From the NCBI GenBank assembly GCA_016757515.1, contig JAERIN010000002.1, positions 40,656 to 104,655 of the forward strand: a DNA stretch of 64,000 nucleotides. Reading direction: 5' to 3'. Below are positions 14,110 to 57,028 of this stretch, in pieces. Below the pieces are notes generated by a model that saw only the letters and a program-made list of their open reading frames with translations, had not been told where the DNA came from and did no database searches. A program made the position numbers and the translations under genes. The DNA is from Alphaproteobacteria bacterium. Lineage in GTDB: Bacteria > Pseudomonadota > Alphaproteobacteria > Micavibrionales > Micavibrionaceae. Position 1 is the first letter of the stretch. Each line of letters begins with the position of its first letter.

Positions 14110-14197
14110 GTGATACCGCCGTGCCACCACCCAGATACCGTCGTGACACCGCCCAGCCACCGCCCAGATACCGTCGTGACACCGCCCAGATACCGCG
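14110..14197. repeat. GC-rich tandem repeat, dispersed family copy 1
   Basis: A 27-base unit beginning CCCAGATACCGTCGTGACAC occurs identically at 14130-14156 and 14163-14189, a period of 33 bases, with degenerate flanking partial copies. The 26 bases at 14147-14172 recur as an exact reverse complement at 56763-56788, so this is a dispersed intergenic family rather than a local slip. Confidence 0.85.
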
Positions 14198-14404
14198 AAA
14201 ATCTCTGCGCCCCCCTGGCCTCGCATCGTTGGATTTCTGGTTTAGAGCCGTTGCTTTTTTGTCTATGCCTTGCTACATTGGGAGCTATGACCCTGGCCAA
14301 CGTGCCCCAGCCGCGCCTTGCGCGCCTCCTTCATCGCCCCTAGGCGGGTATGGGGCGTCCTCTTGCCGCCCACACCTAGGGGAAAATCTGTACAAAGCAT
14401 GTCA

Positions 14405-16259: not shown

Positions 16260-19148
16260 ATGTCACGCGCTCTTTGTTCGGTTCTCCCCACGTCTTTCCG
16301 CGGCCAGCGGGGCTTTACGCTCATAGAGCTGTCCATTGTTCTGGTGATTGTGGGCCTTCTGCTCGCGGGGATTCTCGGGGGCTTTAGGATCTATATAAAG
16401 CAGAAAAAGTTCAACGACACGCAAAACCACATTGAAGAGGTGCGCACGGCCCTCTCGGAGTATGTGCGGAACGAGAATCCGCCGGGGGCGGACCCGAGCG
16501 AGGCCACAAACCCGAACGCGGACCCGGTGCGCTTCCCGTGCCCGGCGAGCCTGACGGTGGGCGAGCGCGCGAATGGCTATGCGCAGGAGGTCTTGGCCTG
16601 CCGGACGATGGCGGCGGGCACGAACGCGGGTGGCGTCTGGGCCAGGACCGGGGCCGGGGCCAGCGGGGGTAGCGACGTTGTGGTCATAGGGTTTGTGCCC
16701 ACGGCCACGCTGGGCATCCCGGCCAAGTACGGCTACGACGGCTATGGCAACCGCCTGGTCTATGCCGTGACGCAGGACCTGACGCAGAACATGGCCCTGA
16801 TGCAGACGGGCGCGGGGCGGCCCCCTGGGCAGGTGGGCATGACTCACACGGACTCGGGTGGAAGCCCGGTGACAGAGGCCGTGGACTTTATGGTGCTCTC
16901 GCCCGGCCAAGCCCGGCACGGGGCGTACACTGCGGCGGGGGTGATGGTCCGGCCCTGCAACGCGACGGCGAGTCTGGGGGACGGGGCGAACTGCGCCTGG
17001 CAGGGCGCGGGCAACGCGAACTTTGTGGACGAGCGGGTCTTTAGTCTGGCCACCACGGGCGCGGGCGCGGTGGAGTACTACGACGACAAGATAACCTATG
17101 CCCTGGGCACGGACAACGACGACCGCTGGTGGGGGCCCACGCAGCCGCGCACCTCTGTGGACATCTTCAACAAGTCCAACACGGACAATGTGATCATCAA
17201 GGGCACCGAAAACCGCAGCCAGCTGATCGTGAACCACACGGGGGACGACGCCGTGGAGGAAGCCGAGCAGGGGGCCAATGGGGTTGCCATGGTGCTTGTG
17301 GCGGGGCCGGAGCCCTCGCTGTCCTTTGAGGAGTGGACGACGGGCCAGGGGAGCGCTGAGCAATCCCGCTGGATCACGGGCAACCCGATGAACGGGAACG
17401 ATCATCTCGTGTTCTGGTATTCGGGGCCCAACGGCTCGGGCATCCTGAACCGGTCGGCCCTGGAGCTCCGCGAGCCCAGTGGGGCGAATGAGCCCACTGC
17501 GGTCCTCCTGGGTGCCATCAATGATCCGTACTCCACCACGGGGTGGGGCACAAGACTGGTGTTTGCCGGCGCGCAAGACCTTAACACAGACCTCATGTCC
17601 ATCGCGCGGTTCAATGTCGATGCCGATATCACTGAACTGCGCGTGCGCATCGGGGACAACGCGGGCGCGGCTGCTGGCGCCAAAAGAGATGCCCTGGTCA
17701 TTGGCGGCACGGACTTTGACAACGGCGATGCCTGGGTGGACCTTATGCGGGTCCGGTCTGATGGTGCGGTTATGATATCGGGGCAAAAGGACTACAGCGG
17801 AAACGTCAACGATGCCTCCAATGCTCTGGTTTTTCCCGAGGCAGGTGGGCACGACTACTTCCAGATTTTCCGTGATGCCCCAGATGCAGACAGAAGTGGC
17901 CTGTGCGGCGAGGGGCAATTTGGATGCCTTGTGTTCAACGCTGTTGATACCAATCAAGCGCCCACGGATGCAGACTTCCTCTTTGGGAGCACAAATCCGC
18001 AAGATGGGTTCAGGGGCAACATGATTATCAAGGGCAACACGGGCTTCGTCGGGCTCGGGACGAACGCACCGAGGGCTCGCCTACATGTGATGAGCTACAT
18101 GTATCCCCCGGGCATTGACCGGACCATTGTTTTGCAAGCATCTGAAGACGCTCAAGGTGACGCGGAAAAGAACAGTGCCCCGGGCATCAATTTCGCGGAC
18201 AGCACAGGGGGCTCTCGGGCTGTCCTTGGTCTTGCGGGTGCTCCTGGGCACTTTTCGCCCGATAGCCAGGCCGGGAATATCGTCTTGCGTACCCTGGGGG
18301 AGGATGTGCGCCTGGCCACATCTCCCACCCCTCTTGACGAACCAATCACACGTCTGATTGTGAAGAACAATGGCCGCGTGGGGATTGGCACTGCAACGCC
18401 AGAGGTCAAGCTGGACGTGGCGGGCGGCGTCCGCCCCGGCAACGAGGGCCAGGCCACCATCTGCGCCAACGGCACCATCCGGTACAACACGGCAGGCTTC
18501 ATGGAGTTCTGCCACGCGGCGGCGTGGCGGCCATTTGGGCGGTATGATGTTGCCGGCATCTATATGAAGGGCGGGGAGGGAGACGACAATGCCTGCCGCT
18601 ATCATAACCCCTATACGGGCGCCTGCTCGTGCCCCGACGGGTACGAACCGTCCCTGTTTTGGGAGTATTCCGGATGGGGTGAGGCGTATAATGATGGCGT
18701 TGCGGGGCGAAAGTTGATGGTCACACTGTGGCAGTGCGTCTTGCCAACAAGCAATATTCTTGGCGCACAGCCCCAACGCCCAGGCGATCCCCCAGGCGAT
18801 CCCCCGCAGGACACGGGATTCTGCACAGGGGGCAATCTTGGGCCATGCTCCGTATCTACAAAACGCGTTGGAGAAATAGGTTCTTGCAACTATGCCAGCC
18901 CCACCGGTGTAGGGATAAGCACATGTACAGCCACGTGCAGTGCTGGCGGCAAATGGACAAACCTTAAGAACTGTTTCATAGGCTTCTGTGCGCCACGGAA
19001 TTTTCCGGGAGCATGCACCCTAAGCCGAACAAGAATCGGACAATCAGATTCTTGTACCTATGTCAATAGGAACTTCGGGATGTCGAGGTGTACAGCCACT
19101 TGTGGTCCTAGCGGCAACTGGACAAACGTTACGGACTGTGCTCTGTAG
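16260..19148 (+). CDS. Giant type IV pilin-like protein with adhesin-type body
   Basis: A 962-residue protein starting at 16260 after an AAAGG site. The class III prepilin signal is textbook: a basic leader ending RGQRG, then FTLIELSIVLVIVGLLLAGI with Glu at +5, so cleavage is expected after Gly18. A pilin-like N-domain follows, then several hundred residues of polar beta-rich sequence. Two tail-fibre-like motifs, VGLGTNAPRARLHV (near 595) and VGIGTATPEVKLDV (near 706), come next, with CANGTIRYNTAGFMEFC in between-fibre style. Two six-cysteine repeats close the protein (about 853-905 and 907-962). Pilins are usually 130-200 residues, so this is more likely a minor tip or adhesin pilin. A prepilin peptidase and PilT/PilU lie 3-8 kb away. 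Confidence 0.88.
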   Translation: MSRALCSVLPTSFRGQRGFTLIELSIVLVIVGLLLAGILGGFRIYIKQKKFNDTQNHIEEVRTALSEYVRNENPPGADPSEATNPNADPVRFPCPASLTVGERANGYAQEVLACRTMAAGTNAGGVWARTGAGASGGSDVVVIGFVPTATLGIPAKYGYDGYGNRLVYAVTQDLTQNMALMQTGAGRPPGQVGMTHTDSGGSPVTEAVDFMVLSPGQARHGAYTAAGVMVRPCNATASLGDGANCAWQGAGNANFVDERVFSLATTGAGAVEYYDDKITYALGTDNDDRWWGPTQPRTSVDIFNKSNTDNVIIKGTENRSQLIVNHTGDDAVEEAEQGANGVAMVLVAGPEPSLSFEEWTTGQGSAEQSRWITGNPMNGNDHLVFWYSGPNGSGILNRSALELREPSGANEPTAVLLGAINDPYSTTGWGTRLVFAGAQDLNTDLMSIARFNVDADITELRVRIGDNAGAAAGAKRDALVIGGTDFDNGDAWVDLMRVRSDGAVMISGQKDYSGNVNDASNALVFPEAGGHDYFQIFRDAPDADRSGLCGEGQFGCLVFNAVDTNQAPTDADFLFGSTNPQDGFRGNMIIKGNTGFVGLGTNAPRARLHVMSYMYPPGIDRTIVLQASEDAQGDAEKNSAPGINFADSTGGSRAVLGLAGAPGHFSPDSQAGNIVLRTLGEDVRLATSPTPLDEPITRLIVKNNGRVGIGTATPEVKLDVAGGVRPGNEGQATICANGTIRYNTAGFMEFCHAAAWRPFGRYDVAGIYMKGGEGDDNACRYHNPYTGACSCPDGYEPSLFWEYSGWGEAYNDGVAGRKLMVTLWQCVLPTSNILGAQPQRPGDPPGDPPQDTGFCTGGNLGPCSVSTKRVGEIGSCNYASPTGVGISTCTATCSAGGKWTNLKNCFIGFCAPRNFPGACTLSRTRIGQSDSCTYVNRNFGMSRCTATCGPSGNWTNVTDCAL

Positions 19149-19198: not shown

Positions 19199-19225
19199 CC
19201 CCACGCGTTACGGCAGCGCGTGGGG
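19199..19225 (+). terminator. Stem-loop after the giant pilin gene
   Basis: CCCCACGCG (19199-19207) pairs perfectly with CGCGTGGGG (19217-19225) around a 9-base loop, 50 bases past the pilin stop and before tRNA-Leu. The tail TCCTTCCTGCTTTC is only moderately T-rich, so termination may be partial. Confidence 0.6.
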
Positions 19226-21275: not shown

Positions 21276-21889
21276 TCACCCTCGGTCTCACGGGCTCCAT
21301 GGCGGCGGGGAAGTCCACGGCGGGCGCGCTGTTGGAGGCCATGGGCGTGCCGGTGCACGAGGCCGACGCCGCCGCGCGGGCCGCAGCGCACCTTCTCCCG
21401 GCGGCCTTCCCGGCGGCACGCTATCCCAGCATTTACAGGCGCGGTACCCTGGACCGCCGGGCTCTGGCCCGCCTGGCGCTGACTGACCCAGCTGAGGCCG
21501 CGCGGCTGGAGGCACTCATTCACCCACATGTGCGCGCGGCGCAGGCCCGCTTCCTCGTGCGCCACCGGCGGGCCGGCGCGCGGATGGTGGCTCTGGACGT
21601 TCCCCTCTTGTTTGAGACGGGGGCAGACGCCCTGGTGGACGCGACTGTGGTCGTCACGGCCCCGCCGTTCCTGCGCCGGGCCAGAGCCCTGGCGCGCCCC
21701 GGCGTGGATGCGGCCTTGTTCGCGGCTGTGGAGGCCCGACAGATGCCTGAGCGAACCAAGTGCGCCCGCGCGGACTTTGTTGTGCCCAGCGGTGCCGGGC
21801 GCGCGGCCCTGGCGCGGGGCCTTGCGGTCCTTGTGGGCAGGCTTACGCGGGAAGAGACAGGCGCCCTTCCACTATTCCCGTTCTGCTAA
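21272..21889 (+). CDS. coaE: Dephospho-CoA kinase
   Basis: A 205-residue enzyme of the last step of coenzyme A synthesis, phosphorylating dephospho-CoA. The P-loop is GSMAAGKST near residue 8. The following VHEADAAARAA and VALDVPLLFETG match the CoA-binding and lid regions. The ATG overlaps the ruvC stop codon. The 3' end runs 18 bases into the convergent pilU gene. Confidence 0.94.
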   Translation: MITLGLTGSMAAGKSTAGALLEAMGVPVHEADAAARAAAHLLPAAFPAARYPSIYRRGTLDRRALARLALTDPAEAARLEALIHPHVRAAQARFLVRHRRAGARMVALDVPLLFETGADALVDATVVVTAPPFLRRARALARPGVDAALFAAVEARQMPERTKCARADFVVPSGAGRAALARGLAVLVGRLTREETGALPLFPFC

Positions 21890-23017
21890 CGCCAGGAAGG
21901 AGGTGTCCATAGCGCGCAGGACGTCCTTGCTCCCCCGCATTTTGACCTGCTGCAGCTTTATCTTCAGGTCTGCGGCCCTGTCCGCGTGACTTATCGCAGC
22001 CTCCTCGGTGATGAGGCCGCGGGCATAGAGGTCCAAGATAGACTGGTCAAAGGTCGCCATGCCCTGGGAGGTGTTGCGCTCCAGAATGGAGGTGATTTTG
22101 TGCAGGTCGCCCTGCAAAATGATCTCCCGCACCAGGCCCTCGTTCAGCAAGACCTCCACAGCGGGCACGACCCCTCTCGCGCACGCGGGGATGAGGCGCT
22201 GGGAGACGATTGCCCGGAGGTTCAAGGACAGGCCCAGGCGGATCTGGTCCTTTGCCTCTTCGGGGAACAAGTTGATGATGCGCTCAATGGCCTGATAAGC
22301 GTTGTTTGTGTGCAGCGTGGCCAAGCACAGGTGGCCGGAGGAGGCGATGGTCAGGGCTTGCTCCATGGCGTGCCGGTCCCGAATCTCCCCCACCAGGATG
22401 ACGTCAGGGCGCTGGCGCAGGCAGTTGCGCATGGCCTCATAGAAAGACTCCGTGTCCACGCCAACCTCGCGCTGCGAGACGATGCATTTCTTGTGTTCGT
22501 GGTAATACTCAATCGGGTCTTCAATGGTCAGGATATGCCCTGGCGTGCGTTCATTGCGGTAGTCAATCATGGAGGCCAGTGTTGTGGTTTTGCCAGATCC
22601 TGTGCGGCCTGTCACCAGGACCAGGCCGTTGTGCTCCATAGCCAGGCGGGCCATAATGGGCGGTAGGCGGAGGGCGGAGAAGTCTGGGATATTGGAAATA
22701 ATCCGCCGGATGACCAGGGCGGGCTGCTGTTTTTGCCGCAGAACGTTTACGCGGTAGCGGCCTAGGGGCCCTGCGTCCAGGGCGGTGTTCAGCTCCAATT
22801 TCACCGCGAACTCCCGCAGTTGCCGCCGCGTGAGAATGGCGTTCATCACCAGGTCTAGGTCATCTAGGGTGAGGGGCTCATCCGACAACGTCTCGGTTAC
22901 GTCGTCACCCCGGAGGAGGGGGGGGAAGTCGAGGGTAAGGTAGAGGTCCGTGGCCCCCCGTTCCCCCATGGTCCGGAGGTAGCCCATCACAACATTTATG
23001 CCCTGAATCCCAGTCAA
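21872..23017 (-). CDS. pilU: Type IV pilus retraction ATPase PilU
   Basis: A 381-residue hexameric secretion-type ATPase of the PilT/PilU subfamily. Walker A is GRTGSGKTTT near 137-146. The Asp box is EDPIEYYHEHKK, Walker B is DVILVGEIRD, and the His box is SSGHLCLATLHTNNA. The C-terminal tail after LDLYARGLITEEAAISHAD is longer than in PilT. It follows pilT with a 4-base ATGA overlap, the usual pilTU order. It would assist PilT in depolymerising pili at the inner membrane. Confidence 0.95.
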   Translation of the reverse strand: MTGIQGINVVMGYLRTMGERGATDLYLTLDFPPLLRGDDVTETLSDEPLTLDDLDLVMNAILTRRQLREFAVKLELNTALDAGPLGRYRVNVLRQKQQPALVIRRIISNIPDFSALRLPPIMARLAMEHNGLVLVTGRTGSGKTTTLASMIDYRNERTPGHILTIEDPIEYYHEHKKCIVSQREVGVDTESFYEAMRNCLRQRPDVILVGEIRDRHAMEQALTIASSGHLCLATLHTNNAYQAIERIINLFPEEAKDQIRLGLSLNLRAIVSQRLIPACARGVVPAVEVLLNEGLVREIILQGDLHKITSILERNTSQGMATFDQSILDLYARGLITEEAAISHADRAADLKIKLQQVKMRGSKDVLRAMDTSFLALAERE

Positions 23018-24165
23018 AACGCGTAGTCCTCTTCGCTCTGGGAGGTTTCTTTTGCAGGGGACTTGCCCGTGCCGCCCAGGGCGGCGGGCATGCGCTCTGC
23101 TGGCTCCGACTTCGCGTCGAAGGCTGTGTTCTCGTCTGAGACCTCCAGCAGAACCCGGCGCATTTCGTCCTCGTTGATGATACCGCTCTCCAGAAGGCGC
23201 ATGACGGCATCCTCCATGGTCACCATGCCATAGCGCATCCCGGTCTGCATCATGGAGAAAAGCTGCACAATCTGATTTTCCCGTATGAGGTTGCGCACGG
23301 CGCTTGTGCCCACGAGGACCTCAAATGCCCCGATACGCCCCGAGCCGTCCGCCCGACGCAAGAGGGTCTGCGCCACTACGCCCTGCAAAGATCCCGCAAG
23401 CATGGTGCGGACCATGGCTTTATCCTGGGGCGGGAAGACGTCTATAACCCGGTCTATGGTCTTGTATGCGCTGGAGGCGTGGAGGGTGCCAAACACCAGG
23501 TGCCCGGTCTCCGCAGCCGTGAGGGCCAGGGATATGGTCTCATAGTCCCGAAGCTCCCCCACAAGGATAACGTCCGGGTCCTCACGCAGCGCGCTTTTGA
23601 GGGCCATCTTAAAGTCCTTTGTGTCCACCCCGACCTCCCGGTGTGAGATCAGGGCCCGCTTGGAGCTGTGGAAAAACTCCACCGGGTCTTCAATGGTCAA
23701 GATGTGCTTGGGCTTCGTCAGGTTGATGTGGTGGATCAGGGCCGCGAGCGTTGTGGACTTCCCAGACCCCGTGGGACCCGTGACAAGGACCAGCCCGTCC
23801 TCCAGCTCCGCAAAGCGGCGCATGATGGGGGGAAGCTCCAGTTCGTCAATCGTGGGCACTTCTGTCGGTATAGACCGAAAGACCGCGCAGGTGCCCAAGC
23901 GCGTGGTGAAGGCGTTCACGCGGAAGCGGGCCTTTTCCCCCATGGCAATGGCGAAGTCCAGCTCCCAATCCTTCTCATACGCGGAGCGCTGTTCCTCGCT
24001 CATCACAGAGTAGATCATCCTCCTGATGTCGTCGCTGGACAGGGCCTCAGCCTTCACACGGCGCAAGATACCGTTCACGCGGATGACAGGCGGGCTTCCT
24101 GCGCTGAGGTGCAGGTCCGAGGCCTTGTTCTGCAGGGCAAAGGCCAAAACTTGGGTAAGGTCCAT
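23014..24165 (-). CDS. pilT: Type IV pilus retraction ATPase PilT
   Basis: A 383-residue ATPase that retracts type IV pili and drives twitching. I choose the ATG at 24165 (MDLTQVLAFALQNKASDLHL), which matches the family start; an in-frame extension upstream overlaps the peptidase gene and is unlikely. Walker A is GPTGSGKSTT near 130-139, Walker B is DVILVGELRD, and the His box is AETGHLVFGTLHASSA. It lies 10 bases after the prepilin peptidase gene, so pilD-pilT-pilU reads as one operon. Confidence 0.96.
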   Translation of the reverse strand: MDLTQVLAFALQNKASDLHLSAGSPPVIRVNGILRRVKAEALSSDDIRRMIYSVMSEEQRSAYEKDWELDFAIAMGEKARFRVNAFTTRLGTCAVFRSIPTEVPTIDELELPPIMRRFAELEDGLVLVTGPTGSGKSTTLAALIHHINLTKPKHILTIEDPVEFFHSSKRALISHREVGVDTKDFKMALKSALREDPDVILVGELRDYETISLALTAAETGHLVFGTLHASSAYKTIDRVIDVFPPQDKAMVRTMLAGSLQGVVAQTLLRRADGSGRIGAFEVLVGTSAVRNLIRENQIVQLFSMMQTGMRYGMVTMEDAVMRLLESGIINEDEMRRVLLEVSDENTAFDAKSEPAERMPAALGGTGKSPAKETSQSEEDYAF

Positions 24166-24175
24166 GGCCCGGAGT

Positions 24176-24880
24176 TTACGGCCAGAGGAGAAGAACCGCA
24201 AGAGCCGCGATGAGGGCAGGACCAAAGGGAAATGCCGCGCCGCGCCCTGCCCAGCGCCAGGTTGCGCCCAGGGCGATGCCAGCCACTCCCGCCACAACAA
24301 AGAACCATGGCAGGGGACCAAGACCCAGCCAGGCCCCCGCCGCCGCGCAAAACTTTACGTCCCCCAGGCCCAGGGCATCTTTTTTCAAGACCCTGGACAT
24401 GGCCCAGCCCACGGCCCAGGGCAGGGCCGCGTACAGGGCTGCGGCCGCGATATGTTCTAGGCCTGGGTTGAGCCATAGGCCCATGAGCCCGATCGGCATT
24501 ACCAGAATATCCGGCAACAGGTACGCCCGCAGGTCCACAAGGAGGAGGGCCGCCAGAAGGGGCAGCGCGGCCATGAGGAGGGCCGATTCCAGCGTCGCCC
24601 CGTGGGTGGCGTAGATGGCCAGCGCGGCCAGGGCGCAGCCAACCTCCGTGGCGGGGTAGGCCGGGGAGATGCGCGCGCCGCAGTGCCGGCACCGGCCCCT
24701 GGCGAGGAGCCAGGACAACACCGGCACCAGGTCGCGCGCCGTGAGAGTGGTCCCGCACGCCGGGCATGCCGAGCGGCCCGTGAACATGGTCCAGGTGCGC
24801 CCCGCTTCCGCCCGCGCGGCCAGCGCCGTGGCGAAAGAGCCCAGCGCGAGACCCAGGAGGAGAAAGAGCACAAACCACAT
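24176..24880 (-). CDS. pilD: Prepilin peptidase / N-methyltransferase
   Basis: A 234-residue inner-membrane aspartyl protease that cleaves type IV prepilin leaders and methylates the new N-terminus. It has the cytoplasmic zinc domain with two CxxC pairs (CPACG and CRHCG). The catalytic aspartates lie in LVDLRAYLLPD and ALGLGDVKF (the GxGD motif). About six to eight hydrophobic helices follow. It heads the pilD-pilT-pilU operon. The giant pilin-like protein is an obvious candidate substrate. Confidence 0.94.
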   Translation of the reverse strand: MWFVLFLLLGLALGSFATALAARAEAGRTWTMFTGRSACPACGTTLTARDLVPVLSWLLARGRCRHCGARISPAYPATEVGCALAALAIYATHGATLESALLMAALPLLAALLLVDLRAYLLPDILVMPIGLMGLWLNPGLEHIAAAALYAALPWAVGWAMSRVLKKDALGLGDVKFCAAAGAWLGLGPLPWFFVVAGVAGIALGATWRWAGRGAAFPFGPALIAALAVLLLWP

Positions 24881-37653: not shown

Positions 37654-39275
37654 CTTTCATAACACCCATACATATACGCCGTGGCGGAGGGGATTTCTCC
37701 GGCGCAGGAGTCTACGCGCTTGTACACCGGGCGCACGCCCGCGGCGTGGCGCGCGGTGCGGACCTGGGCCTCGTCCTGGCCGGTCAGGGCGGCAAGGCGC
37801 TTGTCTGAAAAGCCCAGGCGCTTGACCTCCTCCCAAGAATGAGGTTCGACCGGTAGGCCGCTGTCTTGTATGCGCTTTTCTTCCGATACAATACGTTCTA
37901 TCCGCGCCAGGAACCACGGGTCCACACTGCATAGGTCGTGCACCTCTTCCAGTGAAAAACCCTCCCTAAACCCCTGGGCAATATAGAGAATTCTTTGCGG
38001 TGTGGGCTTGGCGATGGCCGCGCGGAGATTGTCTGCTGATACGGGGTCCAGGCCTGTCAGGCCCGTTTCCAGAGACCGCAGGGCTTTGTGCAGTGATTCC
38101 TCAAAACACCGCCCTATAGCCATGACTTCGCCCACGGATTTCATAGCGGTGGTCAGGACCGGGTCCGCGCCGGGGAACTTCTCAAACGCGAAGCGGGGGA
38201 TTTTGGTCACCACATAGTCAATCGTGGGCTCAAACGACGCCGGCGTCCGGCCCCCGGTGATGTCGTTGCCCAACTCGTCCAGGGTGTACCCCACGGCCAG
38301 CTTGGCCGCCACTTTGGCGATCGGGAAGCCCGTCGCCTTGGAGGCCAGCGCGCTGGAGCGCGAGACACGCGGGTTCATCTCAATCACGATCATGCGCCCG
38401 TCGGCAGGGTTCACGGCGAACTGGACATTGGAGCCCCCGGTCTCCACCCCCACAGCGCGGAGGACTTCCAGGGACGCCGTGCGCATAATCTGATATTCCT
38501 TGTCTGTAAGGGTCAGAGCCGGGGCGACGGTGATGGAGTCCCCCGTATGGACGCCCATGGGGTCTATGTTCTCAATGGCGCAGATGATGATGCAGTTGTC
38601 GGCGCGGTCGCGCACGACCTCCATCTCAAACTCCTTCCAGCCCAGGAGGGATTCTTCTATAAGCACCTGGTGCGTGGGGGAGGCGTCCAGGCCCTCCTTG
38701 ACGATGCGGGCGTACTCCTCCCGGTTGTACGCCACGCCGCCGCCCGTGCCGCCCAGGGTGAAGGAGGGGCGGATGATAGCCGGGAGGCCCACGGCGTCCA
38801 TCATCTCGTGCGCCTCGCGTAAGGACGTGACCATGACGCTCTTGGCGGAGGCGAGGCCGATGCGGTCCATGGTGGCGCGGAACTTCTCCCGGTCCTCGGC
38901 GCGGTCAATCACGTCCGCCTTCGCGCCGATGAGCTCTATGGATAGGCGCGCGAGGGTCCCGTCGCGCTCCAGGGCCAGGGCGGTGTTCAGCGCCGTCTGC
39001 CCCCCCATGGTGGGGAGCAGGGCGTCGGGCTTTTCCTGTTCTAAGATCTTGGCCACCATGGCCGGGGTGATGGGCTCAATGTACGTCGCGTCGGCCAGGT
39101 CCGGGTCCGTCATGATCGTGGCGGGGTTGGAGTTGATGAGGACCACGCGATAGCCCTCCTCCCGCAGGGCCTTACACGCCTGCGCGCCGGAGTAGTCAAA
39201 CTCGCACGCCTGGCCGATGACGATGGGCCCCGCGCCGATGATGCAAATGGAGTGTATGTCAGTGCGTTTGGGCAT
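37650..39275 (-). CDS. carB: Carbamoyl-phosphate synthase large subunit, N-terminal half only
   Basis: A 541-residue protein; the usual large subunit is about 1,070 residues. Present are the carboxyphosphate ATP-grasp domain ([54 protein letters not shown]) and the oligomerisation domain ([18 protein letters not shown]), ending at [20 protein letters not shown] then CYES and a stop. This is the boundary where the second half normally begins. The carbamoyl-phosphate ATP-grasp and MGS allosteric domains are absent, and recJ occupies the space. Split carB genes exist in Aquifex and Methanocaldococcus, so a second gene elsewhere would restore function. Otherwise this is a truncated gene. Confidence 0.92.
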
Positions 39276-39277
39276 TT

Positions 39278-40294
39278 TTATGTGGCGTTACTCTTAGTTC
39301 TTCTAAATGGAATTTCAGACTTTATGACGTTTGCTTTACAGCCAGAATTTAAAAGCCAATTATAAATCCAGTCTCTGTCATTTAAATTGTTTGGACCAAC
39401 AATAAAATCTTCAATAATTGAAGAATTATTATCATTGTATTGTATTTTAAATTTAGAATTTATAATATTGTTTTTTATATCAAAAAATTTATTTTTATGA
39501 TTTTTTTCTCTTGAGTAGATTAGAAACAGGCGCCACTCGTCCTCATGGGAAAAAAATGAGTTTTTATATGATACTACAATCATAATCATGTAATCTACAG
39601 CAAGAGAGAAAAAATATCTATTTTTTGCCAGCCCTGACATGCTTCGGTTTTCTTTCTTGGTATTTATAATAAACTTATAAAGTTTTTCAAAATAATTTTT
39701 TATTATTGTTTTATACTTTTCTGTTTTATAGACAACCTTTATAAAACCAACGTTTGGAAATATATTGTGTTTAAGGGCAAGGTGTCTCTTTATTAAATTA
39801 TTTCCATTAAATCCTATATTAACCCCATTTGCAGAATCTGCATACATGTTCCACATAGGCAAAGAATCTATTGATTTTTCTCCGGAAAAACACGAAACAA
39901 ATATATCCCTTGGCCTTAAATCGCGAAATATACAAAACTGACTGTTTTGCGTCACAGAAAGCTGGTTCTCAAGTTTTTTTAAAAGCTGCTCTCTTTCTTC
40001 TCTTTCCTCAAAAACCAAGACACAAACATTTGCTAAGCAGTAGAAAAACATGGCTATATCGCCATTTTCTTCAGTGTCACATCTATGCCAAAATTCCTCC
40101 AGAATTTCCCAAGCAATTTCAAGTCCGCTTTTTATTTCTTTGGAATCGTTCATAAAATGAGCGTTTGTAAACCATATTTCATTTCCCTCTACTATGCTTT
40201 TTGCGGAATCCATTCCTGTATAGTGATAGAGTTTCTTGGGGATGGGGGGCGATTTGACACATTCTTTATGAATTCTCTTAAATAAAGCATTCAT
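39278..40294 (-). CDS. DUF2971-like protein, AT-rich, probably acquired
   Basis: A 338-residue protein starting at an ATG at 40294 with GGAG 6 bases upstream; a longer frame to 40363 would only add a translated repeat. The N-terminus [20 protein letters not shown] and [16 protein letters not shown], plus a later [10 protein letters not shown], match the DUF2971 pattern. The opening YHYT...SI element recalls ADP-ribosyltransferase-like toxins such as DarT, but that likeness is only my reading. The DNA is strikingly AT-rich against its neighbours, with many AAA/ATT codons, a strong sign of transfer. It sits between the carB fragment and an ORF6N gene. Confidence 0.8.
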
Positions 40295-40300
40295 ATCAGG

Positions 40301-40330
40301 CTCCGTGCTCTCCGTGCCCTCTGTGGTGAA
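40301..40330 (-). repeat. ACAGAGGGCACGGAGAGCACGGAG-type repeat
   Basis: Read on the minus strand this is TTCACCACAGAGGGCACGGA continuing with GAGCACGGAG. In frame it would give FTTEGTESTE, a string I recognise at the N-termini of many misannotated bacterial genes next to acquired DNA. It lies directly upstream of the DUF2971 start and supplies its GGAG ribosome site. Confidence 0.6.
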
Positions 40331-40390
40331 AATCCTGTTCATCGGTCCCCCGTATAGTGCCACACGCCCCCCGTGCCCACAATCCGGCCT

Positions 40391-40909
40391 TCAGTCCTCC
40401 TCCTGCTCATACAACCGGAACCCGATAGGGTTTTTCGCGGGCTCCGGCAACCGCAAAAGGCGCTCCACGTGCGCATACAGGTTCGCAATCTGCCGATCGT
40501 GCTCGGCCACCTTGCGTGCCAGGTCCTCGTTTGTGGCCAGCATCTGGCGCAGGCGCACGAAGGTGCGCATAACGGCGATATTGACCTGCACGGCCCGGGG
40601 GCTGCGCAGAACGCTGGAGAGCATGGCAATACCCTCCTGCGTGAAGGCCAGGGGAAGCGCGCCGCCCAGCACCTGCCGCGAAGGTATCACATTTTGTGAT
40701 ACCAGGGCGCCCACCTCCGCCTCGTTCAGTTGAAACATGAAGTCCGGGGGGAAGCGGTCCGGGTTGCGCCGGACCTGCTGCCGCAGGGCGATGGCCTTGA
40801 CGCCGTATATGTCCGCAAGGTCCCGGTCCAGCATCACTTTCTCCCCACGGATGAGGTAGATGGACGCCGCGATGCGCTCTATGGGGATGGAGACGGTGTC
40901 TTTGGGCAT
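40391..40909 (-). CDS. ORF6N domain DNA-binding protein
   Basis: A 172-residue protein with an ORF6N domain in its first 90 or so residues: GEKVMLDRDLADIYGVKAIA, QVRRNPDRFPPDFMFQLNEA and LPLAFTQEGIAMLSSVLRSP. A helical or coiled C-terminal part follows (LARKVAEHDRQIANLYAHVE). ORF6N proteins occur in phage antirepressors and as solitary chromosomal genes of unknown role. Base composition matches the host. It is divergent from slt by about 38 bases, leaving little room for separate promoters. Confidence 0.88.
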   Translation of the reverse strand: MPKDTVSIPIERIAASIYLIRGEKVMLDRDLADIYGVKAIALRQQVRRNPDRFPPDFMFQLNEAEVGALVSQNVIPSRQVLGGALPLAFTQEGIAMLSSVLRSPRAVQVNIAVMRTFVRLRQMLATNEDLARKVAEHDRQIANLYAHVERLLRLPEPAKNPIGFRLYEQEED

Positions 40910-40947
40910 GTGGGGGCTCTCGCTGGGTATAGCCCCACACCCCCCCC

Positions 40948-42921
40948 ATGTCCACCGCCGGGTGGGGCCTTGAAACGGCCTGCGGAGTTGTGGTGTTTGG
41001 GCCCGTGCGCGCGGCTGTGCTCCTCTTTTTTTGCCTGCTGGCCCCCGCTCTGACGCGGGCGGATGGGGGGCAGATCGCCCTGGCCCTGGCGGCCAAGGGG
41101 GCGTGGGCCGAGGCGCGCGCGGCCTCTATGCGGGCGGCGGACCCTCTGGGCAGCCGGGTGTTCTATTGGCTCATCTGCACCCAGAAGGGGGATGTCATCA
41201 CCTGGCGGCCTGTGGATTTCACCAATCTTTCGGCCTTTGTGAAGGCCTCCCCCGGCTGGCCCCGCCTGGCGGAGATTGTCCTGATGGCCGAGGAGGCGAT
41301 GCCCGATTCCCTCGCGCGGGCGGAGGTCTTGGCCTGGTTTGGGCAACACCCGCCACGGACGTCGCGGGGCATGGCGCGGTACGTGGACGCGCTCTTGGCC
41401 ACGGGGCAGGGGGCCAAGGCCCGAGAGGTCTTGCGCACCTGGTGGGGTTCGGCCCTGCTCCCGCCGGAGGATCAAAAGGCCATATACGCCCGCTATGGGC
41501 GGCATCTGGACGCGGGGGCCCATATGGCGCGGCTGGACGCCCTGCTCTTCGCTGGGTATGACCAAAGTGCCCTGGCCCTGGCGAACTGGATGGGGCCGGG
41601 CTATCGGGCCCTGGCAGAGGCGCGTGTGGCCCTCGCGCGTGACAAGGCGGAGGTAAACGCCCGGATAGACCGTGTGCCGAAGGCCCTGCGCGGTGACGCG
41701 GGCCTGGCGTATGAGCGGCTACGATGGCGGCGGACGCGGGGGCTGGACGACGGGGCGATGGCGATTTTGGCAAACCCGCCCCCGGCGGACCAAATCCGCA
41801 ACCCGGCCGCGTGGTGGAAGGAGCGGCACATTATGGTGCGCCGCCTTCTGGAGCGCCGGAACTACAGGGCCGCCTATGCCCTGGCCAAGGCCCACGGGCA
41901 GGCCCCGGGCTCTGGCCTGGCTTTTGCGGAGGGGGAGTTCCTCGCGGGCTGGCTGGCCCTGCGCTTCCTTGCGCGTCCAAGGGCGGCTTTTGAGCACTTT
42001 GAGCGGCTCTACTACGGGGTGTCTACGCCGGTCTCTCGCTCCCGTGGGGCGTACTGGGCGGGCCGTGCGGCGCGCGACATGGGGGCAGAGCCTGTGGCGC
42101 AGGCCTGGTTTGCCGTGGCGGCGGACGTGCCCATGCGCTATTATGGTCAGCTGGCTGCAGCCGAATTGGCCGCCGCGCGCGGGGCCCGGGCTGCGCCGAA
42201 GTTTTCCGTGCCGGAGGTCACGCGGGCCGAGGCGGCCCATTTTGTCCAGGATGACCGGCTGCGCGCGGCCCGGATGCTGCATACTGCTGGCCTGAACGGC
42301 CCTGCGGGGGAGTTCCTCCTGTCCTTTGCCAAGGCCCAGAGCGGGGCCGCCGCGCACCTGTATGCTGCTGACATGGCCGGGCAAATGGGCCTGCCCGCCG
42401 TGGCCATCGCCATCACCAAGCAGGCGGAGAGAAAGGGCCTGGCCATGGGTAAGAAGGCCTGGCCCGTGCTGCGCGGCGCCCGTGGCGGCGGGGTGGACAG
42501 AGCCCTCATCCACGCCATCATACGGCAGGAAAGCGCCTTTAACATCAGGGCTATAAGCCCTGCGGGCGCACGCGGCCTTATGCAGCTCATGCCCGCAACA
42601 GCGCGGGAGACCGCGGGTAAGGTTGGCCTATCTTACAGCGTGCGCCGCCTGACCACGGACTCCGCGTACAACATCGCCCTTGGCACTGGCTACCTGGCCC
42701 AGATGCTCCGCCGGTACGACGGCTCTGTGCCCTTGGCCGCAGCGGCTTACAACGCTGGGCCCGGCAATGTGGACAAATGGCTCAAGACCTTTGGCGACCC
42801 CCGCGCTGGCGCAGTGGGCATGATCGATTGGATAGAACTGATTCCCATCGCGGAGACCCGAAATTACGTCCAGCGTGTCCTGGAGAATCGCCACGTTTAT
42901 CGCGCCCGGCTGAAAGAGTAA
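40948..42921 (+). CDS. slt: Lytic transglycosylase (Slt70-like)
   Basis: A 657-residue periplasmic murein hydrolase that cleaves MurNAc-GlcNAc with 1,6-anhydro product. A signal sequence ([20 protein letters not shown]) lies near the N-terminus; the true start may be a GTG a few codons inside. A long alpha-superhelical U-domain of about 450 residues leads to the catalytic domain. The catalytic Glu528 is in IIRQESAFN, followed by [18 protein letters not shown] and [16 protein letters not shown]. The layout is the family's. Confidence 0.93.
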
Positions 42922-54267: not shown

Positions 54268-55407
54268 ATGCGCACCTTCGCCCTCGCCCTCCTGTCCCTC
54301 CTCGCCCTCGCCGCGCCCGCGCGGGCGGAGGATGTGGATCCCTTGGACCCCTGCTTCGCGGTATACGACGTCGGGGACTACGCCGGTGCCGTTTCTTGTG
54401 TTCACCCCCTGGCCGAGGAGGGAAACCCTTGGGCGCAAGGGGCTTTGGGTGAGATGTATGCCAATGGCCGCGGTGTGCCTCAAGACTACGCCCAGGCGGT
54501 GGACTGGACCCGCAAGGCGGCGGAGCAGGGGAATGCTTGGGCGCAAGCCATTCTGGGTGAGATGTATCGCAAGGGCCAGGGCGTGGCGCAGGATTATGCG
54601 GAGGCCGCGGCCTGGACCCGCAAGGCGGCGGAGCAGGGCTATGACGTGGCGCAGAACAATTTGGGCGCGATGTATGCATTGGGCCAAGGCGTGCCGCAGG
54701 ACTATGCGGAGGCCGCGGCCTGGACCCGCAAGGCGGCGGAGCAGGGCTATGACGTGGCGCAGAACAATTTGGGCGCGATGTATGCATTGGGCCAAGGCGT
54801 GCCGCAGGACGACGCGCAAGCAGTGGAGTGGTACCGCAAGGCGGCCGAGCAGGGGCATGCCCAGGCGCAGAACAATCTGGGCTCGAGGTATTACAATGGC
54901 CAGGGCGTGGCGCAGGACTATGGGGAGGCCGTGGTCTGGTACCGCAAGGCGGCCGAGCAGGGGAATGCTTGGGGGCAGTATAATCTGGGCGTGATGTATC
55001 GGGATGGGCAGGGCGTGCCGCAGGATTATGGGGAGGCCGTGGTCTGGTACCGCAAGGCGGCCGAGCAGGGGCTGGCAGAGGCGCAGGTCAATCTGGGCTG
55101 GATGTATCTCCATGGCCAAGGTGTACTCCAAGACTACGCGCAGGCTGTGGCCTGGTACCGCAAAGCGGCGGAGCAGGGGAACGCTTGGGCGCAGCTCAGT
55201 CTGGGCGTGATGTATTACAAAGGTGAAGGCCTACCGCAGAACTATGAAGAGGCCTATGTGTGGTGGTCTCTGGCTGCCGCGCAGGGGCATGCGGATGCAA
55301 CAAAGCGGCGGGATGTGGCGGCAAGCCGCCTGACCCCCGAAGCCCTCTCCCGCGCGCAGGCGCGGGCGGCGGCGGAGCATGAACGGCTGAAGGAGCCGGC
55401 GCTCTGA
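54268..55407 (+). CDS. Secreted Sel1-repeat protein
   Basis: A 379-residue protein with a signal peptide (MRTFALALLSLLALAAPARA) and about eight 36-residue Sel1-like repeats from near residue 45 to 340. The consensus is close to GxAxAQxNLGxMYxxGQGVPQDYAEAVxWYRKAAEQ. Such alpha-solenoids act as binding scaffolds, often in envelope stress or host interaction. Two of the repeats are identical at the DNA level. It is divergent from nhaA and precedes secE by 54 bases. Confidence 0.93.
   Translation: MRTFALALLSLLALAAPARAEDVDPLDPCFAVYDVGDYAGAVSCVHPLAEEGNPWAQGALGEMYANGRGVPQDYAQAVDWTRKAAEQGNAWAQAILGEMYRKGQGVAQDYAEAAAWTRKAAEQGYDVAQNNLGAMYALGQGVPQDYAEAAAWTRKAAEQGYDVAQNNLGAMYALGQGVPQDDAQAVEWYRKAAEQGHAQAQNNLGSRYYNGQGVAQDYGEAVVWYRKAAEQGNAWGQYNLGVMYRDGQGVPQDYGEAVVWYRKAAEQGLAEAQVNLGWMYLHGQGVLQDYAQAVAWYRKAAEQGNAWAQLSLGVMYYKGEGLPQNYEEAYVWWSLAAAQGHADATKRRDVAASRLTPEALSRAQARAAAEHERLKEPAL
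54595..54809 (+). repeat. Perfect 108-base tandem repeat inside the Sel1 gene
   Basis: The Sel1 units starting near 54595 and 54703 are identical over about 107 bases (from TATGCGGAGGCCGCG to GTGCCGCAGGAC), while other units of the gene differ at many positions. This points to a very recent duplication by slippage or unequal crossing over. Confidence 0.85.
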
Positions 55408-56762: not shown

Positions 56763-56857
56763 GGTATCTGGGCGGTGGCTGGGCGGTGGCCCAGCGGTAT
56801 CCCGGTGGTGGCTGGGTGGTAGCAGGGCGGTATCACGGCGGTGGCTGTGCGGTGGCG
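56763..56857. repeat. GC-rich tandem repeat, dispersed family copy 2
   Basis: A run of imperfect units built on GGTATCTGGGCGGTGGCTGG, GCGGTATC and GGTGGCTG fills most of the gap between the small secreted protein and the TPR gene. Bases 56763-56788 are the exact reverse complement of 14147-14172. The remainder of the 323-base gap (56706-57028) holds no gene I can support. Confidence 0.85.
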
Positions 56858-57028
56858 TGTTTTGGGCACGTACGGCTAGCTATGCTTTTGACTATACACC
56901 ATTTTTCTTCTGGAGGCAAGGGAAAAAGCTGCGGCGCAGCACGGATTTTGGGCCACGCACGCACGCCGCATTCGCGCGCCTCATCTTTTGCCCGCGCGTT
57001 GGTTGTGGCACTGTGGGGGGCCACGCCC

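Follow-up and report, generated by a model that had tools for sequence, protein, structure and literature searches.

An oversized type IV prepilin with phage-fibre-like motifs in a Micavibrionaceae bacterium and its relatives

Introduction

A 64,000-nucleotide stretch of an alphaproteobacterial genome (the window hereafter) holds a gene for a 962-residue protein that starts as a type IV prepilin and continues far beyond the pilin, which raises the question of what such a pilus subunit carries and where it may be displayed. The protein resembles an oversized type IV pilus subunit, of which the first third is pilin and the rest is similar to phage tail-fibre material. The host genome, of the family Micavibrionaceae in the order Micavibrionales, is a 1.75-Mb draft (98.9% complete). 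Here we describe the two parts of the protein, their distribution in related genomes and the pilus machinery that accompanies them, and weigh the possible roles of the composite. The features of the locus are listed in Table 1.

Table 1. Features of the prepilin gene and of the neighbouring pilus genes, in window coordinates.
Feature	Position	Strand	Evidence
Modular prepilin CDS, 962 aa	16260..19148	+	ORF translation; Pfam N_methyl
Leader peptide, residues 1-18, predicted cleavage G18/F19	16260..16313	+	Sequence; TIGR02532
Mature N-terminal alpha helix, residues 19-70, hydrophobic in first half	16314..16469	+	AlphaFold, helix 2-52 of mature chain, pLDDT 85-91
Pilin module, residues 19-291: helix, FPCPA, YDGYGNRLVYAVT, SPGQARHGAY, C233/C245 pair, YDD, WW	16314..17132	+	53 conserved sequences; AlphaFold; stand-alone prepilins elsewhere
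Degenerate capping-loop motif VIIKGTENRSQLIV, residues 311-324, at module junction	17190..17231	+	VGIG...L.V position in relatives
Fibre motif 1, VGLGTNAPRARLHV, residues 597-610	18048..18089	+	Exact VGxGTxxPxxxLxV match
Fibre motif 2, VGIGTATPEVKLDV, residues 707-720	18378..18419	+	Exact VGxGTxxPxxxLxV match; PHROG
Short Cys-containing element CANGTIRYNTAGFMEFCHAAAWRPFG, residues 735-760	18462..18539	+	Common to L044, L046 and L054 after last fibre segment
Cysteine-rich repeat 1, residues 855-905	18822..18974	+	Internal DNA repeat
Cysteine-rich repeat 2, residues 910-960	18987..19139	+	Internal DNA repeat
212 bp identical to end of another contig (G000:C49:9322-9533)	19017..19228	+	Self/genome comparison
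Hairpin CCCCACGCG-TTACGGCAG-CGCGTGGGG 3' of stop codon, terminator-like, without T run	19199..19225	+	Sequence
PilT/PilU-family retraction ATPase	21872..23017	-	TIGR01420, 1.1e-121
PilT/PilU-family retraction ATPase	23014..24171	-	TIGR01420, 6.4e-139
Prepilin peptidase (PilD type)	24176..24880	-	PF06750, 4.6e-24; PF01478, 2.6e-11

Results

A conserved pilin module

The gene starts with an ATG, immediately preceded by a ribosome-binding-like stretch (GAGAAAGG). The class III prepilin signal with a glutamate at position +5, on which the original prediction was founded, was borne out by Pfam N_methyl (residues 14-39, E = 4.3e-7) and by TIGR02532 (E = 3e-7), both matching the N-terminus. All the elements of a type IV prepilin signal are indeed present, namely the class III leader, the glycine at -1, the hydrophobic helix and Glu +5, and the predicted mature protein begins with F19-T-L-I-E23.

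Of 58 related genomes, 51 contain homologues of residues ~12-320. Their identity is mostly 25-42%, and they lie in frames of mostly 330-1400 residues that occur singly or in runs, often in tandem. In an alignment of the pilin module (n = 53 sequences), PCPA, G144, P147, D160, Y168, G216, G221, G227, C233, N244/C245, D275-D276 and W291 are invariant or nearly so. Beyond the N-terminal signal, the module had no match in Pfam, NCBIfam or PDB sequences, including a PDB sequence profile search. An AlphaFold2 model of the module built with 17 sequences (mean pLDDT 72, pTM 0.70) presents a helix of 52 residues followed by a core, many blocks of which reach a pLDDT around 90; the region that follows the N-terminal helix forms a confident globular arrangement of strands and helices. 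A pilin fold for residues 19-291 is plausible from this model, and unproven by comparison since Foldseek yielded no solved or viral counterpart (no match at E<=1e-3 in PDB or BFVD). Structure prediction thus gave a core behind the helix, but neither a matching PDB fold for it nor a usable model of the remainder, residues 290-962 having a pLDDT of 33.

Scanning genome contigs with the single protein recovered no relative, and a five-row alignment was used instead, a 20-row one being too diverse. In an independent, class-wide profile search, 29 of 289 genomes were positive for the module. Most of the homologues inspected from outside the order are prepilins of ~240-300 residues ending where the graft of the present protein starts. 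Another alphaproteobacterium encodes a tandem set of three pilins with this module, all on the minus strand (L106: 1-1101, 1089-1823 and 1756-2472), one of them without Glu5 and one with an unclassified C-terminal extension. These stand-alone prepilins argue that the region is a self-sufficient pilin module, to which the fibre part would have been added.

The fibre-like graft

Two VGxGTxxPxxxLxV motifs had been noticed in the body of the protein, and both proved to be exact matches (from residues 597 and 707), for a chance expectation of ~2e-5 in a protein of this composition. They also conform to the VG....P...L capping-loop consensus of MAT- and S74-type fibres. PHROG tail-fibre profiles match residues ~695-747, the hit to phrog_9942 covering 698-747 (E = 1.2e-5). 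A third, degenerate copy of the motif (VIIKGTENRSQLIV) lies shortly 3' of the conserved WW, and in many members of the order a VGIG...P...L.V.G element directly follows the pilin module. The strict form VG[VIL]G is found at this junction in 18 of 53 sequences, compared to 0.4% in shuffled sequence, and a relaxed form in 36 of 53. Two or three capping-loop motifs are similarly present in the homologues L044 (678 aa), L045 (1007 aa), L047 (633 aa) and L054 (486 aa).

In L045, three motifs precede a C-terminal Peptidase_S74 domain (1.9e-8) with SDARLKDD, then a heptad-like stretch and a hydrophobic segment; this is the only frame joining the prepilin module and S74 among the 58 genomes. Neither the protein under study nor any other part of its genome matched the Peptidase_S74 profile, and an S74 domain in the protein was ruled out. 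Several genomes of the order, including G007 and G010, harbor S74 domains within very long frames (up to ~5000 aa), which are possibly MAT-like surface fibres.

Past the fibre motifs, the tail with its cysteine-rich repeats, of which the DNA is repeated internally (18924-18974 against 19089-19139, 82%), matched no known family and shows no receptor-binding domain in Pfam, NCBIfam or PHROG profiles. The AlphaFold run on residues 290-962, performed as a single chain with six sequences, is uninformative for or against a trimeric intertwined beta-prism, and its low confidence is what one would anticipate when a fibre is modelled under such conditions. As this part could not be modelled, the trimer and the fibre fold rest on the motifs and on the profile hits.

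Copies, mosaics and the 3' end

Genomes carry from one to ~7 genes with the module, of which the C-terminal modules diverge. The genes of two tandem modular pilins in one relative (G005) show no DNA difference over 300 codons; they start to diverge at the module junction, past which identity ranges from about half to nine tenths per 30-codon window; the last 48 residues of both proteins are again identical. This is the sequence pattern to be expected of a constant carrier whose displayed part changes. Recent exchange between paralogues was considered as a general rule and rejected, since among 23 loci examined the pattern was clear only in G005, a draft assembly.

The repeated 212 bp correspond to the last 43 codons of the gene and the hairpin, and the copy on the other contig adjoins a pdxT-like gene. 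This exact repeat of the 3' end suggests either that another copy went unassembled or that the assembly is at fault.

Neighbourhood and pilus machinery

As read from the open reading frames, the gene is surrounded by a leuA-like gene, a tRNA-Leu and a trigger-factor-like gene. Membership in a pilus operon was rejected; pilT, pilU and pilD lie 3-6 kb downstream on the opposite strand. A scan for sigma-70 promoters near the gene gave matches at chance level.

Elsewhere in the window, self-comparison revealed tandem direct repeats at 54411-55292 (108-bp register, ~70-81% identity, within ~0.9 kb). A short TACCG-rich repeat is dispersed in direct and inverted orientation in or near intergenic DNA (14110-14218 and 56763-56905 of the window; 8525-8657 of L034). 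The region 38001-41000 has a GC content of ~0.47-0.52, compared to ~0.65 around it, and is possibly a recent acquisition.

Besides the two retraction ATPases and the prepilin peptidase, the MSHA-like type IVa machine encoded in the genome comprises PilB, which carries an MshE-type c-di-GMP motif, together with a PilC/GspF protein and an MshL-like secretin. No family match was obtained for the three genes that follow pilC. Other prepilin-like genes of the assembly encode a 267-aa protein on contig C1 and a GspH-like 197-aa protein on contig C64. In genome G001, the prepilin-S74 gene (L045) adjoins a PilC/GspF gene in convergent orientation. PilY1 was found neither in the host genome nor in 56 of the 58 related genomes, and the protein itself lacks a PF05567 beta-propeller.

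Discussion

A probable displayed fibre on a pilin carrier

We read the protein as most likely a modular minor pilin, which would display a fibre-like binding module, probably at the tip of the pilus. The prepilin peptidase would remove the 18-residue leader, and by its ~270-residue pilin module the protein would join the MSHA-like type IVa pilus. The grafted ~670 residues, with a cysteine-rich end and with the capping-loop motifs known from trimeric fibres of phage type, would be displayed outside the pilus. The tip appears the most likely position because so bulky a graft would clash within the filament, and in view of published modelling of bulky modular pilins (PMC8179133) and of the CofB/TcpB precedent. 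The displayed part would probably trimerise into a stalk with a binding end and serve as a device for attachment, possibly to prey or surfaces, which retraction by PilT/PilU could pull. The adhesin role is what we infer from the whole, and prey recognition is put forward as a hypothesis. Against this reading weigh the negative fold searches with the pilin module, the low-confidence model of the graft, the negative S74 and binding-domain results for the protein, the position of the gene outside a pilus operon and the single prepilin-S74 frame in 58 genomes.

Under the main alternative, which we consider unlikely, the protein would be a minor pilin with a structural or initiating role, similar to TcpB/CofB or GspK, and its C-terminal module would prime assembly or recruit a secreted effector instead of itself binding a target surface. 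It has precedents, the trimeric tip minor pilins CofB and TcpB binding secreted CofJ and TcpF and TcpB initiating pilus assembly; moreover, few other prepilins are present in the assembly, so that the protein may be essential. However, one to ~7 copies with diverging C-terminal modules speak more for display than for a core role in assembly. More doubtful still is a surface fibre outside any pilus, membrane-anchored or released, for which the helix would only serve insertion or export. The hydrophobic stretch past the chaperone domain of the S74 homologue suggests a processing route of its own, and a trimer would have three pilin heads to place, but the module has stand-alone prepilins among its homologues, retains Glu5 and occurs in a genome encoding a type IVa machine. 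Despite the copy of its 3' end at a contig end elsewhere, it is very improbable that the gene is an assembly or gene-call artefact fusing a short prepilin to an unrelated fibre gene, an assembly-error fusion being ruled out and the continuity of the frame supported because homologues of the same layout, sought as a check in related genomes, occur in many genera, each as one uninterrupted frame, and because the contig (C2) continues on both sides.

Comparison with known systems

The display of a fibre-like module by a pilin thus remains the preferred reading, and the presumption that it would be a new way of display did not hold as such: the pilin module is joined to phage-fibre-type sequence across the order, in the presence of a type IVa machine, but modular pilins are established. 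Indeed, 264 architectures have been catalogued, such as PilB of Streptococcus sanguinis, including a prepilin-S74 pair (IPR012902-IPR030392), and tip placement has been modelled for bulky modular pilins (PMC8179133). Like these, the present protein has an N-terminal pilin module followed by a C-terminal module that is not specific to pili; its pilin module, however, forms a distinct alphaproteobacterial family without Pfam or NCBIfam model, and its graft consists of fibre motifs and cysteine-rich repeats. S74 is a self-cleaving trimerisation chaperone. This activity is more likely for the S74 domain of prepilin-S74 pairs than that of the predicted peptidase by which it was described (PMC8179133).

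The published type IVb minor pilins CofB and TcpB, which form trimers at the pilus tip, are likewise large and combine an N-terminal pilin domain with C-terminal modules, which are beta-rich in their case. On the contrary, the host studied here has MSHA-like type IVa machinery, the fibre motifs are of phage type, and PDB sequence searches gave no match to the solved CofB/TcpB structures. The PilV shufflon adhesins of IncI plasmids also combine a constant pilin part with a variable C-terminal part, and one relative (G005) exhibits a comparable mosaic, whereas the present analysis, short of an in-depth search, showed neither an invertase nor an array of inverted-repeat cassettes. In its capping-loop consensus, the graft resembles the mosaic adhesive trimers (MAT) of Bdellovibrio, surface fibres of a predator with S74 and non-S74 members, in which a VG....P...L-type consensus marks the capping loops of trimeric beta-prism fibres (PMC10769870). 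The MAT N-terminus is made of a signal peptide and a conserved beta domain of ~130 residues (PMC10769870), whereas a prepilin module is found instead in the present protein.

Modular pilins as a class, the prepilin-S74 pairing and the trimeric tip minor pilins CofB/TcpB were hence already established. The new elements are an order-wide family, a pilin module without library profile, a phage-fibre-type graft without S74, and the co-occurrence of these with a missing PilY1.

Significance for the order

The analysis defines a pilin module that has no profile in the main family libraries, and prepilin-S74 pairs, read so far as predicted peptidases, may be self-chaperoned pilus fibres. In M. aeruginosavorus, three operons and eight prepilin-like proteins were reported, with pilus genes expressed in the attack or attachment phases (PMC3189940). 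A broader proposal, possible though doubtful, is that this order, which includes known epibiotic predators, replaced the PilY1 tip adhesin by pilins with trimeric phage-fibre-type modules, a constant pilin module bearing a diverging display; these would be retractable prey-recognition fibres, the pilus-borne counterpart of the Bdellovibrio MAT. The fibre-bearing pilins occur throughout the order in genomes that mostly lack PilY1, and the recurrence of the same design would fit an attachment device displayed on the pilus. Prey recognition by Micavibrio-type epibiotic predators is poorly understood, and the fibre-bearing pilins provide specific genes to test.
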